Part shown: one piece after another, positions 1-42,603 of the stretch
Numbering within the stretch: the first letter of the stretch is position 1
Layout: each line of letters begins with the position of its first letter
NCBI GenBank assembly: GCA_019119595.1
Contig: DWWS01000065.1
Coordinates: 1-64,000 of the forward strand
Direction: 5' to 3'
Source of the DNA: Candidatus Eisenbergiella merdavium
GTDB taxonomy: Bacteria; Bacillota; Clostridia; Lachnospirales; Lachnospiraceae
Length of the DNA stretch: 64,000 nucleotides
Notes under the pieces: generated by a model
The model's database searches: none
What the model was told of the DNA's origin: nothing
What the model saw: the letters and a program-made list of their open reading frames with translations, nothing else
Made by a program: the position numbers and the translations under genes

Positions 1-312
1 TGGCATCCAAGCGATAACATCTATATGATCCGCATCTATGCTGCTCAGCCAATCATCATTGTCATACCATGCAAGCGTTATGCCCTCTCCATTAGCCAAC
101 GTTGCTATTACATCTTCAGCATTCTCAGGCAGCCGCTCCTCCACCGGAATCCATCCGTCATTCATGTTCTTGCGGATAATATCTTCTGCCATGCGTAATC
201 CCTTATATTGTTCCCTGTGTATTGTAATCTCCATAGGGTCAATTTCTATTTTTACAATGTCTAAGCAGTTTTTCTTTTTTATCTTTATCTCTTCCAGAAT
301 CTCTTTTAACAT
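1..312 (-). CDS. DUF551 domain protein, 3' end cut by window edge
   Basis: The gene starts at an ATG at 310-312 after AGGAGG and runs leftward off the window; 104 codons are visible with no stop. The protein has a charged N-terminal helix, then the DUF551 hallmark: WIPVEERLPE near residues 54-63 and VIAWMP at the visible end. DUF551 proteins are small, common in prophages and integrative elements, and of unknown function. It lies just downstream of the next gene (10-nt gap) in the same leftward run. Confidence 0.85.
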   Translation of the reverse strand, partial: MLKEILEEIKIKKKNCLDIVKIEIDPMEITIHREQYKGLRMAEDIIRKNMNDGWIPVEERLPENAEDVIATLANGEGITLAWYDNDDWLSSIDADHIDVIAWMP

Positions 313-322
313 CCTGACCTCC

Positions 323-1021
323 TTATGCGATCCACGCCTCCGCCGGAAGCGCGTCTGTATACTGTTCCCACTCCTGTGATTCTTTGCTATACTCTTCCCT
401 GCTCCAGCGGTCCCTACTGACATTCTCATACAGCCTCTCGATTTCTTTTACTACCTGCAGGTATCCGGTGTTTTGATCCCGGAGTATGTCTATTGCGGCT
501 TTCAGGCTGTCATATCGGTTTCGCAGGCCAATGTAAGCGTGATATAGCTTAAAGCACTGTCTGGAGGCTACAATAAGATTTTCCTTTGTCATCCGCATTA
601 AATTTTTCTTCGCCTCTTCTTCCGCGAATCTGTCCTCGTATGACTGCAGGCCGTAATAGTCTCCTTCATAAGCATCCCAGCCCAACAGGCCGCCCATGTC
701 TCCCGCTCCCGCCGCGACAAAGAACATGTCAAAGCAGTCCGGAACCCACACTTCATCGAGGTCTTCTCTCATTCTGTCGCATTCGGCGCAAAGATCAGCA
801 AATGCCATCTTAAACTCATAGGCTTCGTCCTCATCGCCATCGAGGGCGTTGATGAGGGAATCGGTTCCGTCTTCGGAATCTGTGTACCAGCGTATATCCT
901 CACATGCTTCCTGTATGTCCCACAAGTCTTGCTGAATGAAGTCCAGATTCAGATTTTTGACAATAGGCTTTTTGTACCTGAGCTCCCAGGCTTTATATCG
1001 TTTTGTTTCCTCTGCATTCAT
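323..1021 (-). CDS. Hypothetical protein, acidic, 232 aa
   Basis: No family recognised. I chose the ATG at 1021 because GGAGG (1028-1032) sits 6 nt upstream; an ATG seven codons earlier lacks a comparable site. The protein is acidic and rich in Trp, Tyr, Asp and Glu, with a Gly/Ala stretch near residues 104-114 and a more basic helical C-terminal half. The start overlaps the end of the preceding small Cys protein by 29 nt, which implies translational coupling. Probably an accessory protein of the element. Confidence 0.7.
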   Translation of the reverse strand: MNAEETKRYKAWELRYKKPIVKNLNLDFIQQDLWDIQEACEDIRWYTDSEDGTDSLINALDGDEDEAYEFKMAFADLCAECDRMREDLDEVWVPDCFDMFFVAAGAGDMGGLLGWDAYEGDYYGLQSYEDRFAEEEAKKNLMRMTKENLIVASRQCFKLYHAYIGLRNRYDSLKAAIDILRDQNTGYLQVVKEIERLYENVSRDRWSREEYSKESQEWEQYTDALPAEAWIA

Positions 1022-1235
1022 TTTGGGCCTCCATTGCGGCACGAAGCGCGCATTCCGTACACATCTTCCTGCCGACCTTGTACCCTTCCGGCAGCGGCCT
1101 GTCCCAGCATTCTCGACCGCACTCCAGGCAGATCGTCAGCTTCCAGTCCGGACTGCCCGGAAGTGGGATGTTCTTTCGCAGGGGCATCATCAAGATGCCG
1201 CCTGTGTCAGTTTTCTTTCGTGGTTCGATTTTCAT
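993..1235 (-). CDS. Small four-Cys (zinc-finger-like) protein, 80 aa
   Basis: A basic N-terminus is followed by CLECGREC near residues 36-43 and CTEC near residues 59-62, spacing that would suit one structural zinc site. No catalytic motif is seen. It overlaps the 3' end of the cytosine methyltransferase (stop at 1207) by 29 nt and the next gene by 29 nt, so all three are probably cotranslated. Function unknown; zinc binding is an inference from the cysteine pattern. Confidence 0.65.
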   Translation of the reverse strand: MKIEPRKKTDTGGILMMPLRKNIPLPGSPDWKLTICLECGRECWDRPLPEGYKVGRKMCTECALRAAMEAQNECRGNKTI

Positions 1236-2580
1236 TTTCTACCTCGTAAATCGCTCTAAATATCGGATAAAACTGCTGTGGCACAACCGCATTTCCAAGG
1301 CATTTCAGCCTGTCAACCCTATGTTCTATCCCTGTCGCGACCCTCGGGATGTCTGGCTCTTCATCCCAGTAATGGTCGATCAGGAAATCTCTGTCCATCC
1401 CGGCGGGAAGCCCATCAGCCACTCCACCCAGTACGGATTGAGCTGTCCTCCATTCCCTTGGCTCATGTTCTTCCGCTCTTCTTCCGTTATCACTCCCTGA
1501 CCTTCCAGTTTCTTCAGCTGCTGATAATTCCCGCTCCCTCCGCACAGTCCCGCTCCTGTCGTCGGAGTTGGGTACATTGCGATCTGGTCGTTCAGGTTCC
1601 GGCTCCGGTGTTCCCTGTCCTCCCAGCGGATGGCCTGTCCCGTCCGGTAGTCTCGCGCTTGCGGCGTTGCGATCATTTCTCTCATCACATCCCCCACCAA
1701 CGAATCTCTGCCTATCTGGCTTGCCGGAAGGGTACTGTTCTTCGCGTCCTGCGCCGTTGGGGTATTGTACATTTTCATTGCCGCCGATAAGTCCGGACTC
1801 CTCCTGTTCCTCTCCGATTGACAATCCCCTCTCATACTTGCTTTTGGTGTTGGCCAAAGTTTTACCTGTCCACTCAGATTCGGCTCTCCACGGCTGTTCA
1901 CATACATTTTCCGGTTCACTGCATCTGCGGTGACTGGCGTTTTCCAAATTTTCGGTTCTTCCCATGACCTTACTGTTTCCGGGTTTACCTGCTCCCGCAG
2001 GTTCGCAGGACGTCTTCTCCCTTTTCTGCTGCCCTCTGCCTGCTTTTTCAGTGCTTCTGATGATCTTTGCGGAAGATGATCCATTGTGTTCGGTGTAGCC
2101 CACAATTGCCACCCGGTATCTTCTGTGTCTGGCTCCGACACCACAAGCTGGTATAAGAAATGTCCTTGTCCGATATCCGCAGCTCTCCAGCTCAGATAGT
2201 ATATCGGGGAGTGCCATCTTAACGATCCCAGCAACATTTTCTCCAATGATCCAAGTGGGCCGGAGTTCTTTGATAACCCTGACCATTTCAGGCCAGAGGT
2301 AGCGGTCATCTTCCTTGCCTCTTTGCTTCCCGGCAACGGAAAAGGGCTGGCAAGGAAACCCTCCTGAAATAATGTCAACTGTCCCTCTACCTGTCCGCTC
2401 ATAAAAGCTCTCCTTAGTCAGTGTTCTGATATCTTTCCAGCGTGGTACGTTCGGCCAGTGTTTTTCAAGGACTTTTGTGGGATAATCCGCCCACTCGCAC
2501 TGTCCTATCGTCTGTATGCCGGCCCATTCTGCTGCCAGATCAAGACCTCCGATTCCTGAAAATAACGATAAATGTGTCAT
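1207..2580 (-). CDS. DNA (cytosine-5)-methyltransferase, element-borne, 457 aa
   Basis: Transfers methyl from SAM to cytosine C5. Numbering from the ATG at 2580, motif I LFSGIGG is at 6-12, the catalytic loop GGFPCQPFS at 73-81 (Cys77), ENV at 114-116, a RHRRYR motif VIII-like segment near 151-156, and LGNAVVP near the C-terminus. Residues about 165-370 are a long polar insertion with recurring N-[AST]-x-x-x-R-type units and little hydrophobic core; a second gene uses this DNA in the +1 frame. The ATG at 2580 follows GAGG and overlaps no upstream coding sequence (previous stop at 2585). No cognate endonuclease is next to it, so it is probably a solitary protective methylase. Confidence 0.93.
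   Translation of the reverse strand: MTHLSLFSGIGGLDLAAEWAGIQTIGQCEWADYPTKVLEKHWPNVPRWKDIRTLTKESFYERTGRGTVDIISGGFPCQPFSVAGKQRGKEDDRYLWPEMVRVIKELRPTWIIGENVAGIVKMALPDILSELESCGYRTRTFLIPACGVGARHRRYRVAIVGYTEHNGSSSAKIIRSTEKAGRGQQKREKTSCEPAGAGKPGNSKVMGRTENLENASHRRCSEPENVCEQPWRAESEWTGKTLANTKSKYERGLSIGEEQEESGLIGGNENVQYPNGAGREEQYPSGKPDRQRFVGGGCDERNDRNAASARLPDGTGHPLGGQGTPEPEPERPDRNVPNSDDRSGTVRRERELSAAEETGRSGSDNGRRAEEHEPREWRTAQSVLGGVADGLPAGMDRDFLIDHYWDEEPDIPRVATGIEHRVDRLKCLGNAVVPQQFYPIFRAIYEVENENRTTKEN
1380..2402 (-). CDS. Protein nested in the methyltransferase gene in the +1 frame, TP-repeat family, 340 aa
   Basis: This frame lies wholly inside the methyltransferase gene and has its own strong start signal: AAGGAG at 2410-2415, 7 nt before the ATG at 2402. 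It stays open for 340 codons. Six spaced units carry a [WYI]-x-TP core (residues 101-105, 153-159, 183-189, 212-218, 244-250, 277-283), and the C-terminus holds GGQLNPYWVEWLMGFPPGW at 318-336. From memory, phage proteins often annotated as DNA methylase share the WPTPTA-type repeats and the LNPxWVEWLMG ending, so I consider it a real protein. Its function is unknown; it has no SAM-binding motif. The alternative is an unusually long chance frame in GC-rich DNA, which the conserved-looking ending argues against. Confidence 0.7.
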   Translation of the reverse strand: MSGQVEGQLTLFQEGFLASPFPLPGSKEARKMTATSGLKWSGLSKNSGPLGSLEKMLLGSLRWHSPIYYLSWRAADIGQGHFLYQLVVSEPDTEDTGWQLWATPNTMDHLPQRSSEALKKQAEGSRKGRRRPANLREQVNPETVRSWEEPKIWKTPVTADAVNRKMYVNSRGEPNLSGQVKLWPTPKASMRGDCQSERNRRSPDLSAAMKMYNTPTAQDAKNSTLPASQIGRDSLVGDVMREMIATPQARDYRTGQAIRWEDREHRSRNLNDQIAMYPTPTTGAGLCGGSGNYQQLKKLEGQGVITEEERKNMSQGNGGQLNPYWVEWLMGFPPGWTEIS

Positions 2581-2584
2581 ACTT

Positions 2585-2869
2585 TTACCTCGGCATCTCA
2601 ACAATCATCCCAAGATCATCAAAAATCCGCTTTTTAATCTCATCAAGCGTAATCCTACCCTCATCGTGGTCAGTATTGAGCCTTCCCATTGCTTTCACAA
2701 ATCTTTCCGCTCTGGCCTGCCCGAAGCCGAACGTGTCTCGCAGGACATACAGGCTCATAAGCATATTTGCCGAAAACGCGCTTGCGGCCGCCATATCAGC
2801 CCTTGCCCGTGAGGATCTCATTTCCTTTATCAGATCGCGTTTATTATCATAATGTCTTCTGCTCATTCC
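2585..2869 (-). CDS. Hypothetical phage/ICE protein, 94 aa
   Basis: Start chosen at 2869 (MSRRHYDNKRDL) because it overlaps the previous stop by 7 nt and GGAGAAAG lies just upstream; the longer reading to 3088 only shadows the upstream gene. The protein is helical, basic at the N-terminus, with an Ala-rich middle and IKKRIFDDLGMIVEMPR at the end. No family recognised. It sits directly before the cytosine methyltransferase in the leftward operon. Confidence 0.7.
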   Translation of the reverse strand, partial: GMSRRHYDNKRDLIKEMRSSRARADMAAASAFSANMLMSLYVLRDTFGFGQARAERFVKAMGRLNTDHDEGRITLDEIKKRIFDDLGMIVEMPR

Positions 2870-3198
2870 ACTTTCTCCTTCCACAGCCAGCTCCGCCGTC
2901 GGAACGGTCTCACCGTTGCACCCCATTCTTTCCGGATCATTCTCTTGACGGCGGCCCCATCCTGGAGCGTTGCTGTGGCTTCCTCCCACTCCGCCGGCCA
3001 TCCGTCTCTTAATACGATTCGTTCCCGGTCTCCTTCCTGCGTCTTGACCGTGTATCTGTTCTTCAGCTTTCCCCCGCTCCTGGCGCACTCCGCGAACCGC
3101 CTTCTTGCAACGCCCAGGAGCTTTTCGCCTTCTGTGCAGGTCATTTCTCCGATCAGAATTTCTCCATCGTAGACCTGATATTTTCTCAATATGATCAC
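2863..3198 (-). CDS. Hypothetical protein, 111 aa
   Basis: Begins MIILRKYQVYDGEILIGEM and contains a region reading as a basic, DNA- or RNA-associated fold (ARRRFAECARSGGKLKNRY, residues 31-49) and a Trp-rich stretch (DGWPAEWEEA, 65-74). It ends RRRSWLWKEKVE. It couples to the next gene by a 7-nt overlap. The N-terminal half recalls small regulators found next to phage methylases, but I cannot name the family. Confidence 0.65.
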   Translation of the reverse strand: MIILRKYQVYDGEILIGEMTCTEGEKLLGVARRRFAECARSGGKLKNRYTVKTQEGDRERIVLRDGWPAEWEEATATLQDGAAVKRMIRKEWGATVRPFRRRSWLWKEKVE

Positions 3199-3214
3199 CT
3201 CACCAGGATTCTCC

Positions 3215-3508
3215 TCATTTTCCCTTCATCTTTTCTTGGAACGCAGCCCTCAAAAGTTTCTGCGGGTCATTCTTGTATTCCATGACCTCTTTCAGCGCCT
3301 GATCAAGATATTGGTAGGAGGCAAGATATTTTTGTCCACCCCTGACTTCCTCCCTGTATTTTTGTACCTCTTCTCTGGTTGTCATTCCCTTATCCACCAT
3401 CATCCTCAATATCGCTTGTGTATCTATTGCAATATCCAGGATCAATTTCTTGTTTTTCAGATCCTCCAGTGTCCCATCCAGATCCGACATCTGATTTAAT
3501 CTCAGCAT
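3215..3508 (-). CDS. Hypothetical coiled protein, 97 aa
   Basis: The ATG at 3508 follows GGAGGAG with 6-nt spacing. The protein is almost entirely charged helix (EDLKNKKLILDIAIDTQAIL, then EEVQKYREEVRGGQKYLASY), suggesting a short coiled coil. No domain recognised. It lies between the transglycosylase and the 111-aa gene in the same operon. Confidence 0.65.
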   Translation of the reverse strand: MLRLNQMSDLDGTLEDLKNKKLILDIAIDTQAILRMMVDKGMTTREEVQKYREEVRGGQKYLASYQYLDQALKEVMEYKNDPQKLLRAAFQEKMKGK

Positions 3509-3520
3509 TTTTTCTCCTCC

Positions 3521-3994
3521 TCATTTCCCATGCAGCCGCTCAAGGGCGGCCGATCTCTCAAGTATCTCATCGGCATATTGTGACGGTTCGATCTTGTTGA
3601 CCGCTCCCGCCTCTCCGTGATAGACCATGAGGACCGTTCCCACGTCCTCATACCGCTCAAACAATTCCCGCAGATAATCCGCTGCTACTTCCATGTTCTG
3701 TTCCGGGTCGTAGAGATCCGTTACGCTCAGCTCCCTCATCCGGTCTCCATGCCAGGCTGGATTGACCTGCATCAGGCCGGTGCATCCGCCGTTCTGTGCG
3801 TCTGCCTGGAAGCGGCTCTCCTGAAATGCAATCGACTGCAGTAATTCCGGACAGATGTTGTATTCCTTTCCAATCTCGTTCGAGATCTCGAGGATGCTAT
3901 CTGGTACGATACATTCCTCCGCCTGCACTCTGATGCCCGCTCCCGCCTGGCAGAACAGAACGACGGCTATAATCAATAAAATTTTTACTCTCAT
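3521..3994 (-). CDS. Secreted lytic transglycosylase (SLT domain), 157 aa
   Basis: Cleaves peptidoglycan glycan strands. The ATG at 3994 is preceded by GGAGG at normal spacing and begins an export signal (MRVKILLIIAVVLFCQAGAG). The SLT fold follows: LLQSIAFQESRFQ supplies the catalytic Glu, then GLMQVNP, then a helix with YLRELFERYEDVGTVLMVYHGE. Such small secreted transglycosylases act as VirB1-like wall openers in conjugation systems or as phage entry enzymes; here it sits near ParA and the HUH initiator, so a role in DNA transfer is likely but inferred. Confidence 0.9.
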   Translation of the reverse strand: MRVKILLIIAVVLFCQAGAGIRVQAEECIVPDSILEISNEIGKEYNICPELLQSIAFQESRFQADAQNGGCTGLMQVNPAWHGDRMRELSVTDLYDPEQNMEVAADYLRELFERYEDVGTVLMVYHGEAGAVNKIEPSQYADEILERSAALERLHGK

Positions 3995-4019
3995 AAAATT
4001 CCTCCAGAGCGAGTATTTA

Positions 4020-4391
4020 CTAGCTTTCCAGCGATGATTTTGTTTTCCTCTCCCGCTCAACTTTGATCATTCCTTTTGAGGTGATGCTTACCCGGCCCGT
4101 TGTGCTTCCAGATGTAAGTGTGCACTTGTCTAAGGTTCCGTTGTAGATGAAACACATTGCTTCATTCAGCATCATTTCCATCTCAGGCTGGTCTTCGTGA
4201 AAAAGGGTCTTGATATTTTTCTGCGCCTTCGTCAGGATCTGTTCCTGATCATGCACGTTCTTTGCTTCCTCACAGGTACATACTTCCGTGGCCTTTCGGT
4301 TTTTTTCTTCCTCGGACAGGCCAATGCCGTCCTCAACTTCAAACTGATTGACCTGCCCGCAGTAGATGCATTCTCCAGTCTCAATCCTCAC
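4020..4391 (-). CDS. Small Cys-containing element protein, 123 aa
   Basis: The N-terminus carries ECIYCGQ and, about 27 residues on, VCTCEEA, giving a CxxC...CxC set that could bind zinc. The rest is helical and charged, ending in a basic tail (KVERERKTKSSLES). It overlaps the end of the ParA-partner gene by 11 nt, so it belongs to the same operon. I have seen similar proteins in clostridial integrative elements but know of no function. Confidence 0.65.
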   Translation of the reverse strand: MRIETGECIYCGQVNQFEVEDGIGLSEEEKNRKATEVCTCEEAKNVHDQEQILTKAQKNIKTLFHEDQPEMEMMLNEAMCFIYNGTLDKCTLTSGSTTGRVSITSKGMIKVERERKTKSSLES

Positions 4392-5274
4392 CCTCTTCCC
4401 TCACTTCCTCCGTCGCTTCCGTGTACCCCTCGAATCCAAGGACGCAGTATCCAGGGATCAGTCCTCCGGAATCGTCCGTCATGTGCGTGATCTTGATCTC
4501 CACGATCTTGCCTGTCCGCCGTCCCTTAAAGCACTCCATCAGGATCAGGGTGTTTTCGACACGGTACTTGTGCCGCATCTTCAGGATCAGATAGCGTCTG
4601 CTCCCTTCTGTGATCTCTGCCAGCATGGTTTTTCCGATCTTTTCCCTGTATACCGCATCCCGCGGGGGAGGCTCGATCGGCTTCGGCTCAGGTTTCTGTT
4701 CCTTCCAGTCATCGTCCTGTTGCGGCGACGCAATTTCTTTTCTTTCATGTGGTTCGCTCTCTTTGGGATCATCTCCTCCCGCTTTGGCAGATTTTGGCTC
4801 CTCTTCCGGCTTCGGTTCGTCCCGTTCTGTGCGGATTGCCCGGATCTCCCTCATGGTCATATCATCCGTCACCTCTTCCAGCTCTTCATCGGTCAGGTAC
4901 AGCATTTCCTGAAGCTTCGCGAAGCCATAATTCCTATATTCTGCTTTCAGCTCCATGCTGTTTCCGTTTTCCGAAAAGCGATCATTGATCTGGATCAGGC
5001 GGGTGACCACTGAGCGGGAAAGGTTGTATTCCCGTCCGGCGAATTCGCTCAGGCTCCTGTATCCCTCCTGTTCGTACATACGGGATTCCCGCATCTGCTT
5101 CAGGCGGTAGCCAATGACAATAAAATTCTCGCTGGTTTCCTGCAGACGGTTCCGGATATCCTCTTTCCATTCCAGCCAGTCCTGTATCGTGATCTGGCCG
5201 TCCACCTGGTCCCGCTCCCGCCGAAGGCTTCTGTTGTTCATGATCTCCGTCAGATTGAATTTACTGTTTCTCAT
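4381..5274 (-). CDS. ParA-partner protein, probable DNA-binding, 297 aa
   Basis: Start set at 5274, overlapping the ParA stop (5261) by 14 nt. Residues about 25-110 contain a helical region with GYRSLSEFAGREYNLSRSVV, which reads as a helix-turn-helix like that of plasmid partition adaptors. A Pro/Glu/Lys-rich linker follows (about 150-205), then a C-terminal beta-rich domain. There is no ParB nuclease motif. The ParA neighbour and coupling suggest the centromere-binding member of a segregation pair, but it could instead regulate replication. Confidence 0.65.
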   Translation of the reverse strand: MRNSKFNLTEIMNNRSLRRERDQVDGQITIQDWLEWKEDIRNRLQETSENFIVIGYRLKQMRESRMYEQEGYRSLSEFAGREYNLSRSVVTRLIQINDRFSENGNSMELKAEYRNYGFAKLQEMLYLTDEELEEVTDDMTMREIRAIRTERDEPKPEEEPKSAKAGGDDPKESEPHERKEIASPQQDDDWKEQKPEPKPIEPPPRDAVYREKIGKTMLAEITEGSRRYLILKMRHKYRVENTLILMECFKGRRTGKIVEIKITHMTDDSGGLIPGYCVLGFEGYTEATEEVREEGED

Positions 5275-6040
5275 CCTTTGTCCTCTCCAAAAATTCCGTG
5301 ACCAGTTTCCGGTAGTCCAGTGCCGCGGCGCATCTGGTAGAGTACACCGGGACCGGCTGGCGCTGGAAGGTGGCGGGCTTGACCTTATCTGTCCTGCGGA
5401 TCCGGGTTCTGAAGGCCGGATATCCTTTCCGCTCCAGCAGGTCGGCGCCCTGTCGGTCCGCCGCATCCCCGACCACGTACTGGGTGATGAAGCATCCGAG
5501 GAAATCCAGCTCTGGGTTCATGTCCTCCCGCGTGTTTTCAATCTGTTCGGCCAGCTCCGGGAGGCCGTCCAGGGCAAAATCGTCGATTGTGACCGGGATC
5601 ATCACATAATCCGACGCTACAAGGGCGTTCGTGGTGGATATATTGATATCTGGGGCGTTGTCGATGATGCAGTAATCGTACTGATCCGCGATCCGGGAGA
5701 GCGCTTTCCGGAACCGGTCATGCTGCGGACGGTGCTGATCGAGCTGTACTGTCAGATTTGCGGTGATGAGAGACATGTTGCAGGTGATGATATCCAGTCC
5801 GGCGTAATCCGTGTGCCGGATCAGGGACGCCATGACTGGAAGGCGCTCCGTCATCAGGCTGTCCGTCCCCTTGTGGTCGTAGCTGTGCAGGTCATACATC
5901 TTTGACAGATTGCCCTGCTTGTCGTTGTCGATCATCAGGACACGGTATCCGCGCTCTGCAGCGAGTATGTAAGCCATTGTGGCGGTCGAGATCGTCTTTG
6001 CGACGCCGCCTTTCAGGTTGATGATTGAGAGTGTTTTCAT
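5261..6040 (-). CDS. ParA/Soj-family ATPase, 259 aa
   Basis: A deviant Walker ATPase of the MinD/ParA family, which positions or segregates DNA. Walker A is KGGVAKT at residues 10-16, A' is VLMIDNDKQGN near 34-44, and Walker B is DYCIIDNAPD. The length is typical of short plasmid ParAs lacking an N-terminal HTH. The ATG at 6040 follows directly after the stop of the 35-aa gene, whose last codons contain AGGAGG. With its partner it probably stabilises the element when excised or replicating. Confidence 0.92.
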   Translation of the reverse strand: MKTLSIINLKGGVAKTISTATMAYILAAERGYRVLMIDNDKQGNLSKMYDLHSYDHKGTDSLMTERLPVMASLIRHTDYAGLDIITCNMSLITANLTVQLDQHRPQHDRFRKALSRIADQYDYCIIDNAPDINISTTNALVASDYVMIPVTIDDFALDGLPELAEQIENTREDMNPELDFLGCFITQYVVGDAADRQGADLLERKGYPAFRTRIRRTDKVKPATFQRQPVPVYSTRCAAALDYRKLVTEFLERTKDEKQ

Positions 6041-6148
6041 TCAGCGCCTCCTGTTGTATGGGTCGTAATACATTTCTTCTTTGCCGGCTTTATAAATCAC
6101 TCTGGCCGCCAGAATAAGGATCCCGGCGAGAAGCCCAATCTTTTTCAT
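6041..6148 (-). CDS. Small membrane peptide, 35 aa
   Basis: GGAGGAAAACG precedes an ATG at 6146-6148. The peptide starts MKKIGLLAGILILAARVIYK, a single hydrophobic helix after two lysines, then a polar tail ending YNRRR. Its stop codon abuts the ParA start, and its last codons supply the ParA ribosome binding site. It could be a small membrane protein or simply a leader that couples ParA translation. Confidence 0.55.
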   Translation of the reverse strand: MKKIGLLAGILILAARVIYKAGKEEMYYDPYNRRR

Positions 6149-6159
6149 CGTTTTCCTCC

Positions 6160-6507
6160 TCAAAAATTGTATTTGTGGTATGTTACATCTGCCCGGCTCC
6201 ATCCCGGATAGAGGCTGCGCATGTAGTCCTCCAGCATGCCGATCATCTCCGACCGCAGGCCCTTGTTGCCGTTATCCATCAGGTTGTGATGGTACTGGCA
6301 TCCAAGGACGCCGTTTTCCTTGATCCCCATGCCGAGGGCCGACCTGGGGACGATGTGCATGATCTCAGGGATCGTGTATGCAAAAGGGCTTGATGCCTCC
6401 ATGTGGTATCCACGGAGGCAGAAGAAGCAGCCTCCGTCCCGGTTTTTGATCTCAGCCCGGACTTTTGGGGTAAATTCCAGTTTTCGTGTTGCTCTGTGCC
6501 TTTTCAT
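6160..6507 (-). CDS. HNH-type nuclease domain protein, 115 aa
   Basis: Cys27-x-x-Cys30 and the segment IMHIVPRSALGM...NGVLGCQYHHNLMDNG fit the beta-beta-alpha metal fold of HNH enzymes, with His51 and His73/His74 as likely catalytic or metal residues. The N-terminus is basic. Phage and ICE genomes commonly carry such small HNH proteins as DNA nickases or packaging helpers. Catalytic activity is inferred. Confidence 0.75.
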   Translation of the reverse strand: MKRHRATRKLEFTPKVRAEIKNRDGGCFFCLRGYHMEASSPFAYTIPEIMHIVPRSALGMGIKENGVLGCQYHHNLMDNGNKGLRSEMIGMLEDYMRSLYPGWSRADVTYHKYNF

Positions 6508-6516
6508 CCCGCTCCC

Positions 6517-7077
6517 TCACATCTCAAGGATCTGGGAGGCTACCATATCGGCAGTGTGTGTCCAAAGCACGTTTGGATATTTCCGGATCACCCGGCCCAG
6601 GCTGATCCAGATCTCTGATCCCTCATACGCTCCCATATGGTAACGGATGCACATGATTTCTTCGTCGGTGAGCCGGATATGCTGCAATGCAAGGATCACT
6701 GACTTCTCGCCGTGTCCTGTCAGAAGCATGTCCGGATTGTATTCGAATCCTGATCCTGTTACCCGGTATGCGTCTATCTTACATAGGTCATGAAAGAATC
6801 CTATCAGGTATGGGGATGCTTTCCGCTTCCATTTCAGGTCAAGCCTCTTTGTCAGATCTGCCAGCGTCAACGCTACCAGCTCCGAGTGGTCGTACAGACC
6901 TCCAGCGTACGCTCCATGATGCTTTAACGATGCCGGGGCTGAAAAATAGTACATGTTCATCAGCCAGGTAAATGTTGTCCTGATGTCATCGGTACTCATC
7001 ACCTGTGACATATGCCTCTTAAATGCCTGTATCCGTGCGTCGCATGTCCGGTACTGGCCGGAAATTCCTTTGTTCAT
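6517..7077 (-). CDS. HD-domain hydrolase, 186 aa
   Basis: The metal-binding His/Asp set of the HD superfamily is visible: HHGAYAGGLYDHS (53-65), FHDLCK (95-100, the HD pair is 96-97), HGEKS (122-126) and a further His at 147. The family hydrolyses phosphoesters, often nucleotides; similar proteins in clostridial elements resemble relaxase- or helicase-associated HD (TraI-like) proteins. It sits between the HNH gene and small hypotheticals. Substrate unknown. Confidence 0.85.
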   Translation of the reverse strand: MNKGISGQYRTCDARIQAFKRHMSQVMSTDDIRTTFTWLMNMYYFSAPASLKHHGAYAGGLYDHSELVALTLADLTKRLDLKWKRKASPYLIGFFHDLCKIDAYRVTGSGFEYNPDMLLTGHGEKSVILALQHIRLTDEEIMCIRYHMGAYEGSEIWISLGRVIRKYPNVLWTHTADMVASQILEM

Positions 7078-7130
7078 GATCCGATCCCTCCTTGCGGGGC
7101 CGCGCCCCGCTCAAATTCGTGATATATACT

Positions 7131-7418
7131 CTATGAGCCGGGTTTCTTAAGGTGTTTCAACCATGCGCATCCTGGCTTCCAGGCGGCGGTCGATCTTTTT
7201 TTCAGATCCATGCCAATATAATTTTCGTCCAGGGTGTCGTATATCCTGTTCAGGATATCTTCGTCTATTATGCCCAGGCTTTCCAACTGGTCGGCAAAAT
7301 CCATGTCACGGCACTGCGCGCTTCCTCCGTTTCCTTTCCAGCGTTTCTGCAAGGTTTTGCCGCCTGTTTCCAGTGTTTCGATAAAGCCCTCTTCTGTTGT
7401 CTCTACGATATATTTCAT
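7131..7418 (-). CDS. Hypothetical protein, 95 aa
   Basis: Starts MKYIVETTEEGFIETLETGG after GGAGGGC. The middle reads DQLESLGIIDEDILNRIYDTLDENYIGMDLKK and the end is basic. No domain recognised. It follows the 69-aa gene by 10 nt, so it is in the leftward operon. Confidence 0.6.
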   Translation of the reverse strand: MKYIVETTEEGFIETLETGGKTLQKRWKGNGGSAQCRDMDFADQLESLGIIDEDILNRIYDTLDENYIGMDLKKRSTAAWKPGCAWLKHLKKPGS

Positions 7419-7428
7419 CCTGCCCTCC

Positions 7429-7638
7429 TTAACTCCTCTGCGTCACGATCCCGTTCTGCATCAGCTCCGCATTGGTAACGCAGAACCTGTATCCTCCCTC
7501 CTGCCGCATCAGGACATGATGCGGGTACTGCCGGATCACCCTCGCCTGCCGCCTTGATGTGCAGATCCGGCCTCCTTTCTCCTCTTTGACTTCCACCGTC
7601 AGATATGTCCCTTCCGGGATCCTCTCATTTACCAACAT
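7429..7638 (-). CDS. Hypothetical small beta-rich protein, 69 aa
   Basis: Start placed at 7638 (MLVNERIPEGTYLTVEVKEE) because AAAGGAAAAGGA lies just upstream and it overlaps the previous stop at 7625 by 14 nt. The sequence alternates charged and hydrophobic residues like a small beta barrel. Its length and ending (MQNGIVTQ) are typical of short prophage/ICE proteins. No function recognised. Confidence 0.6.
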   Translation of the reverse strand: MLVNERIPEGTYLTVEVKEEKGGRICTSRRQARVIRQYPHHVLMRQEGGYRFCVTNAELMQNGIVTQRS

Positions 7639-8074
7639 GATCCTTTTCCTTTCTCTCAAGTTCGCTCAGCATCCACTCCCGATAGGAGTGGTCCTGTTCG
7701 GTTGCCGTAAATATATGCGGTTGCTCTCCGCAGAGCAGCCTGTCCCATAATTCCACGTTCTTAACAGGCTTCCCTTTTGCTGTCTTCCAGCCTGCTGCTT
7801 TCCACTCCTGCGGCCAGCCGTTCCGGATCGCATTGAAAACGTATCCGCAATGAGTAAATACTCGTATTTCAGCCGGTTTCCTCACCCGCTCCGAAGCTCG
7901 GATAAGAGCCTCCAGCGTGAGCTGATTTTCTGTCGATTCGTGTCGGCAATATCCGCATCGTGTCACCGGCTGGTCATGGAGCATATATTCCAGTACATAC
8001 AGATATGCTCCCTCTCTGACTGCTGGTCCCCGGATGGAGACCTCTATGTATACATTCACCTGTGTCCTATCCAT
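7625..8074 (-). CDS. RNase H-fold protein, 149 aa
   Basis: The order of elements matches an RNase HI fold: VNVYIEVSIRGPAVREGAYLYVLEY (first strands), ENQLTLEALIRASERV (helix with the conserved Glu), IRVFTHCGYVFNAI (usual T-D strand, here TH) and WPQEWKAAGWKTAKGKPVKN, a typical basic handle. Two acidic catalytic positions look replaced (Ser/Glu and His), so activity is uncertain. It overlaps the HUH initiator gene by 8 nt. It could remove RNA primers during element replication. Confidence 0.7.
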   Translation of the reverse strand: MDRTQVNVYIEVSIRGPAVREGAYLYVLEYMLHDQPVTRCGYCRHESTENQLTLEALIRASERVRKPAEIRVFTHCGYVFNAIRNGWPQEWKAAGWKTAKGKPVKNVELWDRLLCGEQPHIFTATEQDHSYREWMLSELERKEKDHVGK

Positions 8075-8936
8075 TACAGCCTCCCCCTTTCCTTTTGGCG
8101 GCTTTCCTTTCTACGGTTTTCTTCTGTGTAGCCTTCCTTTTTTCCCGGATCAGGACTTCTCCGGCTTCCAGTTCTAACGGATAGGTCTCCAGTTCATCTT
8201 CTTTTCGGGTCTGTCCGTCATAGATCAGGGTATAAGTGAAATACGGATATCCGGTGACTTCATGCCAGGCTTCCCGAATGCTGTCCTTATCCAGGTGCCA
8301 GCCTGGCGGAACCTGGATAGTGTGGTTATAAGCGTTTCTGGATGAAACCGTAGTTTTCTTCGGTTCCGGGATGATGAGGTTCTTGCTGCTGTTGTATCTT
8401 CTCCCGGTAAAACCTTCGCAAGTCTTCATGGTTTTCTCACTGTATTTGACGAAGTAAGATGCCAGCCTCCGGTATTGACCGCTCTCATCCATAGGTTTGA
8501 TATGGATCCATCCTTTGTCCCAGCACTTTTTCAGTTTCTGGATATCAATGGCATTCAGCGTTATATGAATGTGGACGGCTCCTCGTTCTCCTACTTCCGC
8601 CACCCATATGTATTTTGCCTGCCGCCCCTCCTTGGAAAATTCTTTCCGGATATCCCGGAGAAGCTTATTCACATCTGCCCGAAGCTGTTCCTTTCCTTTC
8701 GGGCGGTTATCTTTCCTGTACTCATAGGTCACATATAAGCTTGTTCCGTCAAAATTCGCGTTCATGATCCAGGTCAGCTTCTTTTCTGCGTGTCTGCTGT
8801 TTACTTTCTTCTGTGCTTCGCTGGTCTCGTTCTTCTTCTTCCGGCGGCTGCCCTCTTTGGTGTCTGCCCTGGCTGAATAATAGTATGTGTGCTGTTTTGT
8901 TTTACCTGCCAGGCAGGTCTCATGTCTGTATGGCAT
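8067..8936 (-). CDS. HUH replication initiation protein, 289 aa
   Basis: Rolling-circle type initiators nick one strand and stay joined through Tyr. The HUH metal motif is GAVHIHITLN (His122, His124) and the tyrosine motif is YFVKYSEK (Tyr161, Tyr165), at the spacing seen in G2P/ORF2-like replication proteins. The N-terminal 50 residues are basic. GAGGG lies 6 nt before the ATG at 8936. The inverted repeats at 9022-9092, directly upstream, are a candidate origin. It could also serve in transfer as a relaxase-like nickase. Confidence 0.85.
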   Translation of the reverse strand: MPYRHETCLAGKTKQHTYYYSARADTKEGSRRKKKNETSEAQKKVNSRHAEKKLTWIMNANFDGTSLYVTYEYRKDNRPKGKEQLRADVNKLLRDIRKEFSKEGRQAKYIWVAEVGERGAVHIHITLNAIDIQKLKKCWDKGWIHIKPMDESGQYRRLASYFVKYSEKTMKTCEGFTGRRYNSSKNLIIPEPKKTTVSSRNAYNHTIQVPPGWHLDKDSIREAWHEVTGYPYFTYTLIYDGQTRKEDELETYPLELEAGEVLIREKRKATQKKTVERKAAKRKGGGCNG

Positions 8937-9021
8937 TTCTGGCCCTCATTGTCGTTGGATTAATATACTTATCAAGTGTGAAAGCGGCCTGAAATGCCGC
9001 TATTTTCTTGACTTTTTGAGA

Positions 9022-9098
9022 GCCACAGCTTATAATAAACATGACGGTTTATTGGGGCTGTGGCCCTTGCGTATGTGTTGGCGCACATACGCTTTTTT
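9022..9098. repeat. Two inverted repeats upstream of the HUH initiator gene; candidate replication origin
   Basis: Hairpin 1 pairs GCCACAGC (9022-9029) with GCTGTGGC (9057-9064), then AATAAAC (9034-9040) with GTTTATT (9047-9053) around loop ATGACG. Hairpin 2 pairs GCGTATGTG (9069-9077) with CACATACGC (9084-9092), followed by TTTTTT (9093-9098). The second could be a rightward terminator, but no rightward gene lies upstream. Paired hairpins before a Rep gene are typical of double-strand origins. Confidence 0.5.
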
Positions 9099-9115
9099 AA
9101 TTTTCAAAATACGCA

Positions 9116-9364
9116 TCAGCGTCTCTTTCTCCGGTTCCGGATCGCGTGCCCGAATATGGCGTTCTCCTCCGAAACAGCCTGTCCATCCGTGAGACGGATC
9201 CGCACCTTATACCAATAATGCCCGGTATCGTCCTGGAAGAAATCATAGATCCGCCTGCCCTTCTCCATGCTGCCTATGTACTGCGTAGCTTTTCCGGCTT
9301 CCTCATGTGCGTCAATATTCTCCAGGCTCCACGCCTGCTCCCATGCCTTCCTCAGATCCTCCAT
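9116..9364 (-). CDS. Hypothetical protein, 82 aa
   Basis: Start taken as MEDLRKAWEQAWSLENIDAH at 9364 with AGAAGGGA upstream; it overlaps the preceding gene by 53 nt, and a later start is possible. The middle reads IYDFFQDDTGHYWYKVRIR and the end is very basic (IRNRRKRR), which suggests nucleic-acid contact. No family recognised. Confidence 0.55.
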   Translation of the reverse strand: MEDLRKAWEQAWSLENIDAHEEAGKATQYIGSMEKGRRIYDFFQDDTGHYWYKVRIRLTDGQAVSEENAIFGHAIRNRRKRR

Positions 9365-9650
9365 CCGTACATCCCTTCTGCATGAGTTCTTCCGCCTCCT
9401 GCACAAGCTGGACGGAAAATATTCTGACAATTTCGGAAATGTCCGTTTTCGTCAGATTCAGCTCTTCGCAGGTTTCAACGATCCATTTTGTAACTGCTGA
9501 TCCAACAGCGCTCATAAGCACTCCGGAATTCATTGTTCCTCCACAGCATTCCTGGTAGTTTTTATCCGCCTCCCGGAATGCGAAACAGAGGATGTAATCT
9601 CCCTGCGTTTCCGCGACGTTTCCGTCCTGGATTAATTTTGCTTTTACCAT
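9312..9650 (-). CDS. Hypothetical protein, 112 aa
   Basis: MVKAKLIQDGNVAETQGDYI is followed by FREADKNYQECCGGTMNSG and a helical half (KWIVETCEELNLTKTDISEI). No domain recognised. It overlaps the 56-aa membrane gene by 7 nt, consistent with coupling in the leftward operon. Confidence 0.6.
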   Translation of the reverse strand: MVKAKLIQDGNVAETQGDYILCFAFREADKNYQECCGGTMNSGVLMSAVGSAVTKWIVETCEELNLTKTDISEIVRIFSVQLVQEAEELMQKGCTDGGSEEGMGAGVEPGEY

Positions 9651-9814
9651 GTACGTGCTCCTTTCTTTTTGTTCATTGCGGTGGTGGCCGCATTAACCGC
9701 CAGCCCCGCAAACACCATCACGGCGGCGGCCGGCTGGAATTCTCCGGCCATGTCCATGACTCCAGCGGCCCCGATCGCCCAGACGGCAAACGCAATACCA
9801 TTCAGTGCCCTCAT
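9644..9814 (-). CDS. Small two-helix membrane protein, 56 aa
   Basis: Start placed at 9814 (MRALNGIAFAVWAIGAAGVM) because GGAAGGAAAG lies just upstream. Two hydrophobic helices (about 5-22 and 30-46) are separated by a short polar turn, with a basic C-terminus (MNKKKGARTW). Its binding site overlaps the 3' end of the previous gene near the G10 tract. Function unknown. Confidence 0.6.
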   Translation of the reverse strand: MRALNGIAFAVWAIGAAGVMDMAGEFQPAAAVMVFAGLAVNAATTAMNKKKGARTW

Positions 9815-10065
9815 GATCTTTCCTTCCCCCCCCCCAGTAGGCCATAGATCTCTTTCCACAGTTCCTTGCCTTCCTCTTCTGTGATCTCGCTCAGACCCTC
9901 CAGCGTTTTGAGGCATCCGTTCAGAAACTGAAAGCTTTTATATCTGATCTCGATATTGGCTCCGGCTTCCAGTTCGATATATTTATACATCATTGTTCTT
10001 GCCAGGAATCCGCGTTCAAAATCCCCGCTTTCCTCCAGCCTCCCGATCAGCTCCTCCATTTTCAC
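9811..10065 (-). CDS. Hypothetical protein, 84 aa, with a G10 tract near its end
   Basis: A GTG at 10065 lies 8 nt after GGAGG; an ATG two codons on is the alternative. The protein is helical and acidic (GLSEITEEEGKELWKEIYGLL). The last codons run through ten consecutive G (C10 on the plus strand at 9826-9835), coding Gly-Gly-Gly before KERS. A one-base slip would change the C-terminus. No family recognised. Confidence 0.6.
   Translation of the reverse strand: MKMEELIGRLEESGDFERGFLARTMMYKYIELEAGANIEIRYKSFQFLNGCLKTLEGLSEITEEEGKELWKEIYGLLGGGKERS
9826..9835. repeat. C10/G10 homopolymer
   Basis: Ten consecutive C on the plus strand (G on the coding strand) lie inside the end of the 84-aa gene and just before the ribosome binding site of the 56-aa gene. 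Such a tract could slip in vivo or be miscounted in sequencing. Confidence 0.9.
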
Positions 10066-10080
10066 AGGCTTGTCCTCCTC

Positions 10081-10308
10081 TCAGGCGAATTCAATTTCAT
10101 AGGCCTGATGATCGCTCTCTATTTCGGCCAGACAGAAGAACATGTTCTCGCCTTTATAGATGTTCGGAATCATATCGCATCCATCTACATTTCCGTATAC
10201 TATAGTCCCGATGCTTCCCTCCTCCCGAGGCGCGCGATACTTATATCCATCCGCGATCAGGCTCGCCACCTCGCTTGACTTTGTCAGATAAATCTTAAAT
10301 GCCTTCAT
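10081..10308 (-). CDS. Hypothetical protein, 75 aa
   Basis: Starts MKAFKIYLTKSSEVASLIAD at 10308, 8 nt after GGAGG. The stretch GGAGGACAAGCC before it is identical to that before the next gene at 10065. The protein looks beta-rich with IVYGNVDGCDMIPNIYKGEN. No family recognised; probably an early accessory protein of the element. Confidence 0.6.
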   Translation of the reverse strand: MKAFKIYLTKSSEVASLIADGYKYRAPREEGSIGTIVYGNVDGCDMIPNIYKGENMFFCLAEIESDHQAYEIEFA

Positions 10309-10340
10309 GGGCTTGTCCTCCTTCCCCGGCCTTATGCCGG

Positions 10341-10589
10341 TCACCTGCCAAACATCGCCAGCAGATCCTCATTTGAAAACTTTACCCCGGCGGCTTCCAT
10401 CCGCCAGATTTCTTCCAGACGGAGCATCCCGGTGTCGTTCAGCCGTGAGTAATATGTGCGGCGATTAAGTACTCCGCGTTTTTCCAGATCGCCGCTTCTC
10501 AGACCCGCGGCGGCCATACGCCCTCGGATGATTCTACGTGTATTGTCTTTACGGCTTGCAAACACGCCAAGTGGTTTTACTTTTGGCAT
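10341..10589 (-). CDS. Small HTH-type DNA-binding protein, 82 aa
   Basis: RRIIRGRMAAAGLRSGDLEK followed by RGVLNRRTYYSRLNDTGMLRLEEIWRM reads as a Cro/XRE-like helix-turn-helix with a recognition helix around RRTYYSRL. Such short proteins are common early regulators in Firmicute prophages. It is second in the leftward transcript after the 67-aa XRE protein and may act with it on the operators at 10.87-11.04 kb. Confidence 0.65.
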   Translation of the reverse strand: MPKVKPLGVFASRKDNTRRIIRGRMAAAGLRSGDLEKRGVLNRRTYYSRLNDTGMLRLEEIWRMEAAGVKFSNEDLLAMFGR

Positions 10590-10644
10590 TCATCTTTCAC
10601 CTCCAGTCTTGTCCTTTTTATCGGACACCTTCTGCAGTATCCTG

Positions 10645-10848
10645 TTACTGTGCGGCCAGATTAGGCTCTTCCAGCAGTTTCTCGATTGGAACCTGAAGGT
10701 AATCGGCAACTTTCTGAACCTTTCGGATGCCGGGCTCGTTTTCGTTCCATTTGCAGATACTGCTACGCGGAAATCCGAGGTCATTTTCTACTTTAGAAAT
10801 CGGAATGCCTTTTTTCTTGCACAACCGCTTAACATTGTCGTATAGCAA
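10645..10848 (-). CDS. Cro-like XRE regulator, 67 aa
   Basis: A single XRE domain: MLYDNVKRLCKKKGIPISKV, then ENDLGFPRSSICKWNENEPG with the recognition helix, then VQKVADYLQVPIEKLLEE. GGAGGTG precedes the ATG at 10848. It is the first gene of the leftward run and faces the rightward repressor gene across the operator region. Its recognition helix (GFPRSSICKWN) resembles that of the repressor (GFARSSISKFN), so the two probably read the same operators, as Cro and CI do. Confidence 0.88.
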   Translation of the reverse strand: MLYDNVKRLCKKKGIPISKVENDLGFPRSSICKWNENEPGIRKVQKVADYLQVPIEKLLEEPNLAAQ

Positions 10849-10892
10849 TTTTTCACCTCCTTTATAGTTGCGTAAAATATTCCATATTCATA

Positions 10893-10921
10893 TTGACATT
10901 TTGCGTAAAATATTCTAAAAT
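10893..10921 (+). promoter_or_regulatory. Rightward sigma-A promoter for repressor/ImmA
   Basis: TTGACA (10893-10898), 17-nt spacer, TAAAAT (10916-10921). The spacer contains one operator copy. It would give a leader of about 120 nt before the repressor start at 11048. Confidence 0.65.
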
Positions 10922-10988
10922 CAGAAGTACCACCAACTGATACTTAAAAATATTTGACTACGCAAGATTTTGCGCAACTTATGATTTT

Positions 10989-11016
10989 ATTATACATAAA
11001 ATTTTGCGTATGTCAA
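10989..11016 (-). promoter_or_regulatory. Leftward sigma-A promoter for the early operon
   Basis: On the minus strand, TTGACA (11011-11016), 16-nt spacer, TATAAT (10989-10994). It faces the rightward promoter, and the two transcripts would overlap by about 55 nt. An operator half-site lies in the spacer. Confidence 0.7.
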
Positions 11017-11047
11017 GATTTAATTACGCAAAATTTTGAGGTATAAT

Positions 11048-11467
11048 ATGGGATTGTATGAACGAGTAAAAGAAGTCGCAAAATCAAAGGGCTATTCGAT
11101 AAATCGCCTTGAGTTGGAATTAGGATTTGCAAGAAGTTCAATCAGCAAATTCAATAAAAATACGCCGAGCGCTGAAAAAATTCAGCAGATCGCCGACTTG
11201 CTTGGCGTTTCCGTTGATTATCTTCTAAATGGGAAGGAAGCCTCCGAAAAAGAGCACTCACTTACTGCAAAAGATGAAAAGGATATTGAAAAGATTCTTA
11301 AACAAACGGAAGAACAGCTTCTTTCCCAAGAAGGCCTAATGTTCGATGGAAAGCCTGCTAGTCAGGAAGCCATCGACTCCATTCTTTCCGCTATGCGCGT
11401 GGGAATGGAAATGGCAAAAATAAAGAATAAGGAAAAGTATACCCCGAAGAAATACAAGAAGGATTGA
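11048..11467 (+). CDS. XRE-family repressor (ImmR-like), 139 aa
   Basis: The N-terminal XRE domain (residues 1-62) has LELELGFARSSISKFNKNTP with the recognition helix and ends DYLLNGKE; the acidic helical tail (about 65-139) probably dimerises. GAGG lies 6 nt before the ATG at 11048; a TTG at 11036 is a poorer choice. It overlaps the metallopeptidase start region, the classical ImmR-ImmA arrangement of ICEBs1-like and prophage elements, where the protease destroys the repressor on induction. Confidence 0.9.
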   Translation: MGLYERVKEVAKSKGYSINRLELELGFARSSISKFNKNTPSAEKIQQIADLLGVSVDYLLNGKEASEKEHSLTAKDEKDIEKILKQTEEQLLSQEGLMFDGKPASQEAIDSILSAMRVGMEMAKIKNKEKYTPKKYKKD

Positions 11468-11469
11468 TT

Positions 11470-11892
11470 ATGGAAATCAAAAAACTGACGGATTCACTGG
11501 TTCGAAAGTATCGAACACGTGATCCGTTTGAAATCATCCGTGGCATGAACGTTATATTGGTTTTCGCTCCATTGATAGACACGCGAGCGTTCTATCAGTA
11601 TTTCCAGCGAAACAATATCATCTATATTGATAATAGTCTGTCTCGTCACGAACAGGCTTTTGAGTGCGCACATGAAATGGGACATATGCTGATGCACAAA
11701 AAGATGAACACTATTTTCATGGATACCCGAACAGGGTTCAATACTGATCGGCTTGAAAACGAAGCAGACACCTTCGCTATGAACCTACTCATTGGAGACG
11801 ATGTATTGGTAGAATATGAGGGATATACCATAGGCGAAGTATCTCGCTTTCTGGGATACGAGCGGCGTCTGGTAGAATTGCGGTTAAAATAA
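11470..11892 (+). CDS. ImmA/IrrE-family metallopeptidase, 140 aa
   Basis: The zinc motif HEMGH is at residues 68-72, with a third acidic ligand in the ENEADTFAMNLLI helix. Such anti-repressors cleave their partner XRE repressor and trigger excision. The ATG at 11470 lies 2 nt after the repressor stop, with AAGGA in the repressor's last codons, so the two are coupled. Confidence 0.92.
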   Translation: MEIKKLTDSLVRKYRTRDPFEIIRGMNVILVFAPLIDTRAFYQYFQRNNIIYIDNSLSRHEQAFECAHEMGHMLMHKKMNTIFMDTRTGFNTDRLENEADTFAMNLLIGDDVLVEYEGYTIGEVSRFLGYERRLVELRLK

Positions 11893-11935
11893 CCGTAAGG
11901 TATTTTAATAATAAGAGAGTGGAGGGAAAAACAGA

Positions 11936-13015: not shown

Positions 13016-13043
13016 GAAGTTTTTTTTGAAAGGACGTGATCCA

Positions 13044-13127
13044 ATGCCATTACCAAGAGAACACAGATACACCTCAGAAGACTACTGAAATCTCCCTGAA
13101 GGCCGCCGGGCGGAGTCGATCTGCTGA
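13044..13127 (+). pseudogene. Remnant of a Uma2-family (DUF820) gene start
   Basis: AAAGGA precedes an ATG at 13044-13046. The frame reads MPLPREHRYTSEDY, stop, then NLPEGRRAES before a second stop at 13125-13127. Uma2-family nuclease-like proteins begin with closely similar MPLPREHRYT...LPEGxRAELIDG sequences, so this is probably the first 25 or so codons of a lost gene. An alternative is a functional 14-residue leader peptide. Confidence 0.6.
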
Positions 13128-13133
13128 AAAAAA

Positions 13134-13394
13134 ACATCCCAGCGCTGCAGACGCCGGGATGGTAAGTTGCTCAGTCCTATGAGGACTGGCTGGTTTTTGA
13201 ACAGTTATATACTATCATGTACTTCTTAGTTTTGTACAGGTATTATAAGGCACATGTTTACAAAAAATTTCCGCTCCGATGCTGGTAACATCAGAGCGGA
13301 ATCCCGAAAAATACTGCACAGACCCGGAGGTCGTGACAAATATCTTCCTGCACAAGAGATATTTTACCACAAACCTCCAGCACCTGTACAGGTG
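13134..13394. repeat. Cluster of inverted repeats before the integrase gene
   Basis: No gene lies between 13128 and 13432. The stretch holds several hairpins: CATCCC...GGGATG (about 13134-13160), CAGTCCTATGAGGACTG (about 13174-13190), TCCGCTC...GAGCGGA (about 13271-13301), AAATATCT...AGATATTT (about 13339-13367) and the perfect palindrome CACCTGTACAGGTG (13381-13394). The second, followed by GCTGGTTTTT, may terminate the upstream transcript. The rest could bind integrase or excisionase. Confidence 0.5.
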
Positions 13395-13432
13395 TTATTT
13401 TTATACTCATTTTACGATTGGAGGAATGTGAA

Positions 13433-42366: not shown

Positions 42367-42378
42367 AATGCCCTCCTG

Positions 42379-42588
42379 TCAAACCTTTTCGCCATCCGGA
42401 AGGACAAAATGGCGTTCAAAAGAACACCCTGCTACTTCCGCCAGATATTCCAAGTCAGAGATTGTAAAGCTCTCCCGTTTCATTTTTGAGTTGAAGTTCT
42501 GCGGTGTAGTCCCCATCCGCCTTGCAAGTTCCGCAACGCTGATATTGGAACGCACACACAGTACTTTGATCTGTTCTGATATGGTCAT
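42379..42588 (-). CDS. Small XRE regulator (controller-protein type), 69 aa
   Basis: One XRE domain: MTISEQIKVLCVRSNISVAE, LARRMGTTPQNFNSKMKRES (recognition helix), then a short tail ending FVLPDGEKV. It lies directly before the methyltransferase gene (12-nt gap), the place of C proteins that time endonuclease expression. AAGGAG precedes the ATG. The palindrome AAATTGTCAATTT at 42604-42616 is its likely operator. Confidence 0.85.
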   Translation of the reverse strand: MTISEQIKVLCVRSNISVAELARRMGTTPQNFNSKMKRESFTISDLEYLAEVAGCSFERHFVLPDGEKV

Positions 42589-42603
42589 AAGGGTACTCCT
42601 TGT

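Follow-up and report, generated by a model that had tools for sequence, protein, structure and literature searches.

The locus described here raises a simple question: why does a C5-cytosine methyltransferase (MTase) gene contain, in its +1 frame, a second open reading frame (ORF) of 340 codons, and what might its product do? The gene lies on the minus strand of the window, by which we mean the whole 64,000-nucleotide stretch that was analyzed (Candidatus Eisenbergiella merdavium, contig DWWS01000065.1). To our knowledge, few bacterial genes have two long frames that encode two conserved proteins. The reading we favor, with a probability of roughly 0.83, is that the locus encodes a split C5-cytosine MTase whose two subunits are specified by one stretch of DNA, in a layout like that of M.EcoHK31I. 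We refer to the MTase frame (frame 0) as alpha and to the nested +1 frame as beta. The features on which the argument draws are listed below.

1207..2580, minus strand: alpha, proposed large subunit of a C5-cytosine MTase, 457 aa with the ATG at 2580 as start
2539..2562, minus strand: motif I region of alpha, FSGIGGLD, from sequence and alignment
2410..2415, minus strand: Shine-Dalgarno (SD) sequence of beta, AAGGAG, 7 nt before its ATG
1380..2402, minus strand: beta, the nested +1-frame ORF, 340 aa from an ATG, proposed target-recognition and motif IX subunit
2347..2355, minus strand: motif IV of alpha, PCQ with the catalytic Cys, from alignment
2103..2381, minus strand: N-terminal module of beta, about aa 8-100, lying over alpha motifs IV-VIII, under constraint and also present in single-frame relatives
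2233..2241, minus strand: motif VI of alpha, ENV, from alignment
1551..2102, minus strand: TP-repeat region of beta, six [WYI]xTP units, putative target-recognition region
1392..1448, minus strand: motif-IX-like segment of beta, at the position before motif X in single-frame relatives
1279..1296, minus strand: motif X of alpha, GNAVVP, downstream of the beta stop, from sequence pattern

The alpha frame has the hallmarks of a C5-MTase catalytic domain, namely motif I, PCQ, ENV, and motif VIII; in all, it holds motifs I-VIII and X, where we take FSGIGGLD to be motif I, PCQ motif IV, ENV motif VI, and GNAVVP motif X. A TTG at 2604 is also a possible start, in which case the ORF spans 1207-2604 and encodes 465 aa; on this longer reading, the Pfam match to PF00145 (1.1e-40) covers aa 9-185 only. 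TIGR00675 scored 117.6 bits on alpha against a cutoff of 100.65. A regular expression for motif IX, which finds the motif in 30 of 34 complete MTases and is thus not fully sensitive, had no match in the alpha frame. A monomeric enzyme carries motif IX in the same polypeptide, and here the IX-like segment lies in the +1 frame. The distribution of motifs between the two frames is complementary.

An ORF of 340 codons with its own AAGGAG, nested in the +1 frame of a C5-cytosine MTase, had been reported in an earlier note on this DNA, and we confirmed it, with a good ribosome-binding site, at 1380-2402 on the minus strand. The sequence likewise bears out the AAGGAG at 2410-2415: the start region reads TAAGGAG-AGCTTTT-ATG, and the frame is open for 345 codons from stop to stop. 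Among related loci, 115 of 207 have a core SD match of 5 nt or longer close to a plausible beta start; at a control position 50 codons downstream in the same frame, the count is 10 of 201, the start with the best SD having been chosen in both test and control. Beta matched phrog_1008 over aa 8-194 (1.2e-38), a family that carries the label "DNA methyltransferase" only, while searches of Pfam, NCBIfam, PADLOC, and PDB sequences with beta returned nothing convincing. The note's impression that the C-terminus of beta resembles phage proteins was right, as seen from phrog_1008 and from 72 beta-matching phage records, 54 of them from Paenibacillus. The C-terminal end is GQLNPYWVEWLMGFPPGWT, in which most positions are at least 90% conserved among 112 beta sequences; the conservation of its WVE[WC]LMG core is due in part to selection, as the same pattern was used to fetch the beta-selected loci. 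The nested ORF often goes unannotated: it is marked in one of the seven annotated phage records of the family that we examined, although many Paenibacillus phage records show two features under the beta match. In the Paenibacillus larvae phage Sitara, the depositors annotated the same +1 nested ORF as SITARA_60, with the note "g59 internal gene," but as a "hypothetical protein" without function or subunit role.

That both frames are coding is strongly supported. When the codons of alpha were shuffled among synonyms, the beta ORF was open in none of 20,000 shuffles (mean of 10.1 stops, minimum of 2). Viral relatives were fetched by the alpha frame alone, with an alignment built from nested members only, and the best 80 of at least 586 all had a +1 beta match. 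The beta-selected lists were likewise the best 80 of at least 572 and of 352 loci, so that distant relatives are under-sampled in all of these lists. Openness of the frames was scored over a stretch set by landmarks in alpha, from ENV to 25 aa before motif X. The +1 frame was free of stops in 66 of the 66 evaluable viral relatives among the 80 (14 were left out as open-ended or because X was not found) and in 6/6 near genome relatives; the +2 frame was open in none of the 66 viral or 6 genome relatives. The controls were 24 ordinary C5-MTases from related genomes, among them the second MTase of the window; four were left out, and the +1 frame was open in 0/20 of those evaluated. Two of these 20 (L271 and L277) carry a second nested family described below, and the result speaks for the family around the window and not for all C5-MTases. 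The earlier note had named random stops in the +1 frame of homologous genes as the observation that would speak against dual coding; we looked for them, and found the frame open in every evaluable relative.

The pattern of substitution points the same way. In 52 independent pairs with an alpha identity of 70-95%, 3131 of 3721 fourfold degenerate sites of alpha were identical inside the overlap (84%) versus 554 of 1045 outside it (53%). This freezing of alpha-synonymous sites under beta lends strong support to the earlier proposal of true dual coding. In 377 non-independent pairs, the fourfold identity was 0.394 and 0.465 in the alpha-only parts and 0.715 and 0.791 in the overlap, and among the 342 pairs with enough sites it was greater in the overlap in 328 and lower or equal in 14. 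Substitutions per codon position (1/2/3) were 0.110/0.055/0.418 in the alpha-only N-terminal part, where the third position varies most, 0.123/0.068/0.214 over the initial 80 codons of overlap, and 0.319/0.196/0.253 over its remainder, where the first codon position of alpha coincides with the third of beta. The identity of beta in the two parts of the overlap was 0.749 and 0.611, compared to 0.366 and 0.269 expected from synonymous redraws of alpha, and exceeded all 50 redraws in 49/51 pairs for the first part and 49/50 for the second.

The most conspicuous feature of beta is its set of six [WYI]xTP units, which are at aa 101, 153, 183, 212, 244, and 277 and all lie in one phase over alpha, with overlaps such as WPTPKAS over LANTKSK and YPTPTTG over VPNSDDR. 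The earlier note had concluded that the same DNA repeats code for two repeat families. The common phase stands; the DNA of the six 24-nt units, however, is on average only 48% identical between pairs, and it is invariant only at the first two positions of both the Thr and the Pro codon and at one further base. A search for DNA repeats found eight families of two copies each, 14-22 nt long, of which D4 alone covers parts of two TP units. The alpha residues over the invariant Thr-Pro vary (Y/N/N/Y/N/N, T/A/T/P/A/S, and E/S/K/N/A/D), and a relative that has its TP units in the MTase frame (L161) has stops in both other frames there. Because of the low DNA identity, the varying alpha residues, and the stops in L161, growth by shared repeat expansion, as the note had suggested, is unsupported. 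The TP repeat is a motif of beta, and the apparent repeat in alpha is largely its shadow.

What the C-terminal part of beta might do is suggested by relatives in which everything is in one frame. Such relatives are rare. In L161, L290, L296, and the Gordonia phage Leonard, the catalytic domain, the TP units, a LNPDWVECLMGFP-like segment, and motif X share a single frame; L019 also has TP units and an IX-like segment in frame before X. In L161, L290, L296, and Leonard, the TP units and a segment resembling LNPxWVExLMxxP lie in frame between motifs VIII and X, the place of a target-recognition domain (TRD) and motif IX. Beta, in its C-terminal part, is therefore most simply read as a TRD and motif IX subunit, and to this extent the note, which called the second product unknown, was only half right. 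In Leonard, the protein is gp5; it has TP repeats and LNAAFAEWMMMLP ahead of motif X and, in contrast to the window, shares its frame for all of these with the catalytic domain.

Motif IX is assigned to beta by position and pattern. A profile of the motif was found in the +1 frame with X in the alpha frame in 69/78 alpha-selected viral loci, 77/80 and 72/80 beta-selected loci, and 26/35 loci sought with a fused query; the alpha-selected sample weighs more, since WVE[WC]LMG was used to fetch the beta-selected ones. Comparison of beta with the C-termini of ordinary Dcm proteins by hhalign placed EWLMGFPPGWT on the ARIQTFPDDW stretch, which was not significant (probability 0.2%, E 0.29), and a comparison of IX-X profiles aligned through X only, again without significance. 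Pfam recognized only the catalytic domain in the fused relatives. The AlphaFold model of beta alone was poor, with a pLDDT of 63.8, and matched nothing in the PDB at E<=0.001. A model of the fused relative L290, made from an alignment of three fused rows and 36 catalytic-domain rows, was confident in the large domain only, with residues 170-315 almost wholly below a pLDDT of 50. Aligning a fused relative together with catalytic and beta fragments was also tried and rejected, as the C-terminal pieces were misaligned.

Beta appears to be more than a carrier of the TRD and motif IX, because its N-terminal module is nested also where IX is already in frame: L161, L290, and L296 keep an open +1 segment of 164-173 codons with this module. 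Carrying IX thus seems not to be the only role of the nested module. The +1 frame of L290 and L296 stops inside the TP region or ahead of it, and their short nested ORFs themselves include a single TP unit or its variant WRTP.

The partition of motifs between frames varies among relatives. In ten loci, eight of them distinct (L039, L113, L191, L219, L291, L294, L295, and L306, with L039 = L122 = L292), alpha stops shortly past motif VIII, and the TP units, IX, and X are all found in the +1 ORF, which resembles the way M.AquI is divided. Across relatives, the frame that holds IX and X varies, yet the two stay adjacent. In a tree of the catalytic domain, the single-frame and AquI-like states were scattered among the nested ones, with uneven support (0.43-1.0); L168 carried the label "fused" in this tree. 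We set aside L168, in which IX is in the alpha frame and X elsewhere and which may be an indel error or a decayed copy, as well as L077, L163, L186, L187, and L251, in which, counted from the frame of the catalytic domain, IX is in +2 and X in +1; these may reflect indel errors, decay, or a three-piece arrangement.

Two characterized enzymes offer a comparison. M.EcoHK31I recognizes YGGCCR and M.AquI recognizes CYCGRG. The small gene of EcoHK31I reportedly lies within the large one and is read in a different frame, as described in 1995 by Lee et al., and the window shows nesting of this kind. According to PMC3404938, the large subunit of M.EcoHK31I has motifs I-VIII, X, and the predicted TRD, with motif IX in the small one, while M.AquI is a two-subunit C5-MTase that is split differently. 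The window resembles M.EcoHK31I in having I-VIII and X in alpha and, by position and pattern, IX in beta. It differs in that its TP-repeat region, which falls between VIII and IX as judged from the single-frame relatives, is in the beta frame, whereas the predicted TRD of M.EcoHK31I is in the large subunit (PMC3404938); alpha may contribute to target recognition too. The likeness is one of layout, and EcoHK31I was not among the E. coli loci that we found, which carry a related MTase, have a prophage-like look, came from 4/5426 genomes of the collection, and comprised two sequence types. One of these (L368), beside terminase genes, shows a nested +1 ORF, and another (L367) is annotated as a pseudogene. 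With M.AquI, the window shares the split as such, and eight relatives share the partition; the placement of X with IX in the small subunit is seen in relatives such as L039 and L113, whereas in the window X is in alpha. The AquI-like relatives differ from M.AquI in that their second ORF still overlaps alpha motifs in +1. In the literature searched, which included few subscription papers, no nested genes in phage C5-MTases were described except for the out-of-frame HNH elements of PMC11855218.

In the arrangement that we propose, alpha would supply the AdoMet site, the PCQ catalytic loop, the motifs through VIII, and, at its end, motif X. Beta would be translated from its own SD and ATG, about 60 codons into alpha on the same messenger and in the +1 frame, and would supply the N-terminal module, the TP-repeat target-recognition region, and motif IX. 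The two would then assemble in trans into an active orphan MTase of a phage-like or integrative element. We infer that both proteins are made and that they form one enzyme, in which the DNA target is read by the TP region. A Pfam scan of 10 ORFs neighboring alpha and beta revealed no restriction enzyme, and the DNA of the window at this locus is probably phage-derived. Seeing beta as the missing half of alpha would make the overlap intelligible and, if true, M.EcoHK31I would be one of a broad family instead of a single-enzyme curiosity. Orphan MTases of this family may be inactive if they are cloned without the nested frame or recoded.

Other explanations of the nested frame have to be weighed against this. 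That the long +1 ORF is a by-product of the codon usage or composition of alpha and yields no protein would agree with open overlapping frames being common and with the antisense ORFs, as long as 170 aa, that also lie over alpha, but the absence of a single open shuffle, the contrast of 66/66 with 0/20, the frozen fourfold sites, and the enrichment of SD sequences make it scarcely credible. We attach next to no weight to an out-of-frame insertion element either. Out-of-frame endonucleases do occur inside phage methylases, as PMC11855218 describes for the HNH element of ShiLan, but an element of this type is an HNH endonuclease in an insertion outside conserved methylase sequence; beta overlaps the conserved motifs IV-VIII and is not an insertion, it matched no HNH or other nuclease family, and the ORF was nested in 80/80 alpha-selected relatives (best 80 of at least 586).

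Joining of alpha and beta into one longer protein by a programmed +1 ribosomal frameshift is a more specific proposal, and in the AquI-like relatives a +1 shift after motif VIII would indeed give a complete enzyme. It is nonetheless quite improbable: beta has its own SD and start, its N-terminal module lies upstream of any such shift and is under +1-frame constraint, alpha continues to X in the nested loci, and the residues that precede the stops of the AquI-like alphas differ when compared as protein. Finally, beta might be a separate overprinted product, such as a regulator or an anti-restriction protein, with an incidental resemblance to motif IX. The nonsignificant profile comparison of IX would fit this, as would the presence of an ORF with a related N-terminal module in complete MTases that need no additional IX. 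We nevertheless consider it unlikely, given that no IX is seen in the alpha of split loci, that an IX-like segment is in frame before X in L161, L290, L296, and L019, and that IX and X switch frame among relatives but remain neighbors.

The complete MTases just mentioned came to light through two of the ordinary controls, L271 and L277, which gave matches to the beta profile (E 2.5e-8 and 5e-9) and contain nested +1 ORFs of 177 and 184 codons belonging to phrog_16143. This second nested family (L271, L277, and L325-L361) also has SD sequences and fourfold-site constraint; its hosts are Firmicutes phages, a methanogen virus, and genomes related to that of the window. A tblastn search found the phrog_16143-type ORF in 190 phage records, 139 of them Streptococcus, and a viral scan for the second family returned no match. 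Both the MTase and the nested ORF were matched in 34/37 loci, and the ORF was in +1 in 34/34; L347, L350, and L354 dropped out, and their matches contain stops; several other loci had single stops at the edge. The host MTases have the IX pattern in frame in 30/34 loci and the X pattern in 26/34, the MTase frame of L345 being a fragment. Fourfold sites were identical at 4681/7313 positions inside the nested ORF versus 3863/11252 outside it, and the identity was greater inside in 191/192 non-independent and 15/15 independent pairs. After shuffling, about 1/33 would be open, openness itself having been a condition of detection. In the seven phage loci L355-L361, only the MTase is annotated (7/7).

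By hhalign, the second family matched the N-terminal module of beta with a probability of 92.5% (E 4.9e-7), a score that may be inflated, as both overlap the same conserved MTase motifs. L362 (frame 2, ORF 1070-2309) is an ordinary MTase whose variable region contains, in frame, a segment at about aa 240-295, NAGYMSNGEITT...DEKYFITS (E 3.5e-8). This in-frame segment resembles the C-terminus of the ORFs in the second family, a hint that they, too, may have arisen from a TRD element.

With some hesitation, we lean toward the view that +1 overprinting is old and recurrent in phage-type C5-MTases. One module, which starts shortly before motif IV and has its own SD, would occur in three states: extended by the TRD and IX, short in single-frame enzymes, and as phrog_16143 in complete canonical enzymes. 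As IX and X move between frames, a monomeric enzyme could split or fuse. The occurrence of nested, AquI-like, and single-frame states in one family makes the origin of split enzymes testable.

The nested partition is widespread. It was found in 72/80 genome loci (the best 80 of 352). Judged by the titles of their records, the 80 loci belong to many phyla, with Clostridia, Treponema, Bacteroidetes, Proteobacteria, Verrucomicrobia, and others represented, and many are metagenome bins. Some genomes contain several copies, with five in a Roseovarius MAG (L142-L146) and three in Lihuaxuella thermophila (L123-L125).

Positions 1-14488 of the window look like an element, with an SLT transglycosylase, a ParA-like ATPase, a REP_ORF2-G2P replication protein, and an integrase at 13418-14488. 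Elsewhere, at 40449-43115, the window contains an ordinary single-frame C5-MTase (41170-42366); the ORFs beside it look by eye like what we take to be a restriction enzyme and a Vsr-type endonuclease, and this region is probably a type II system.
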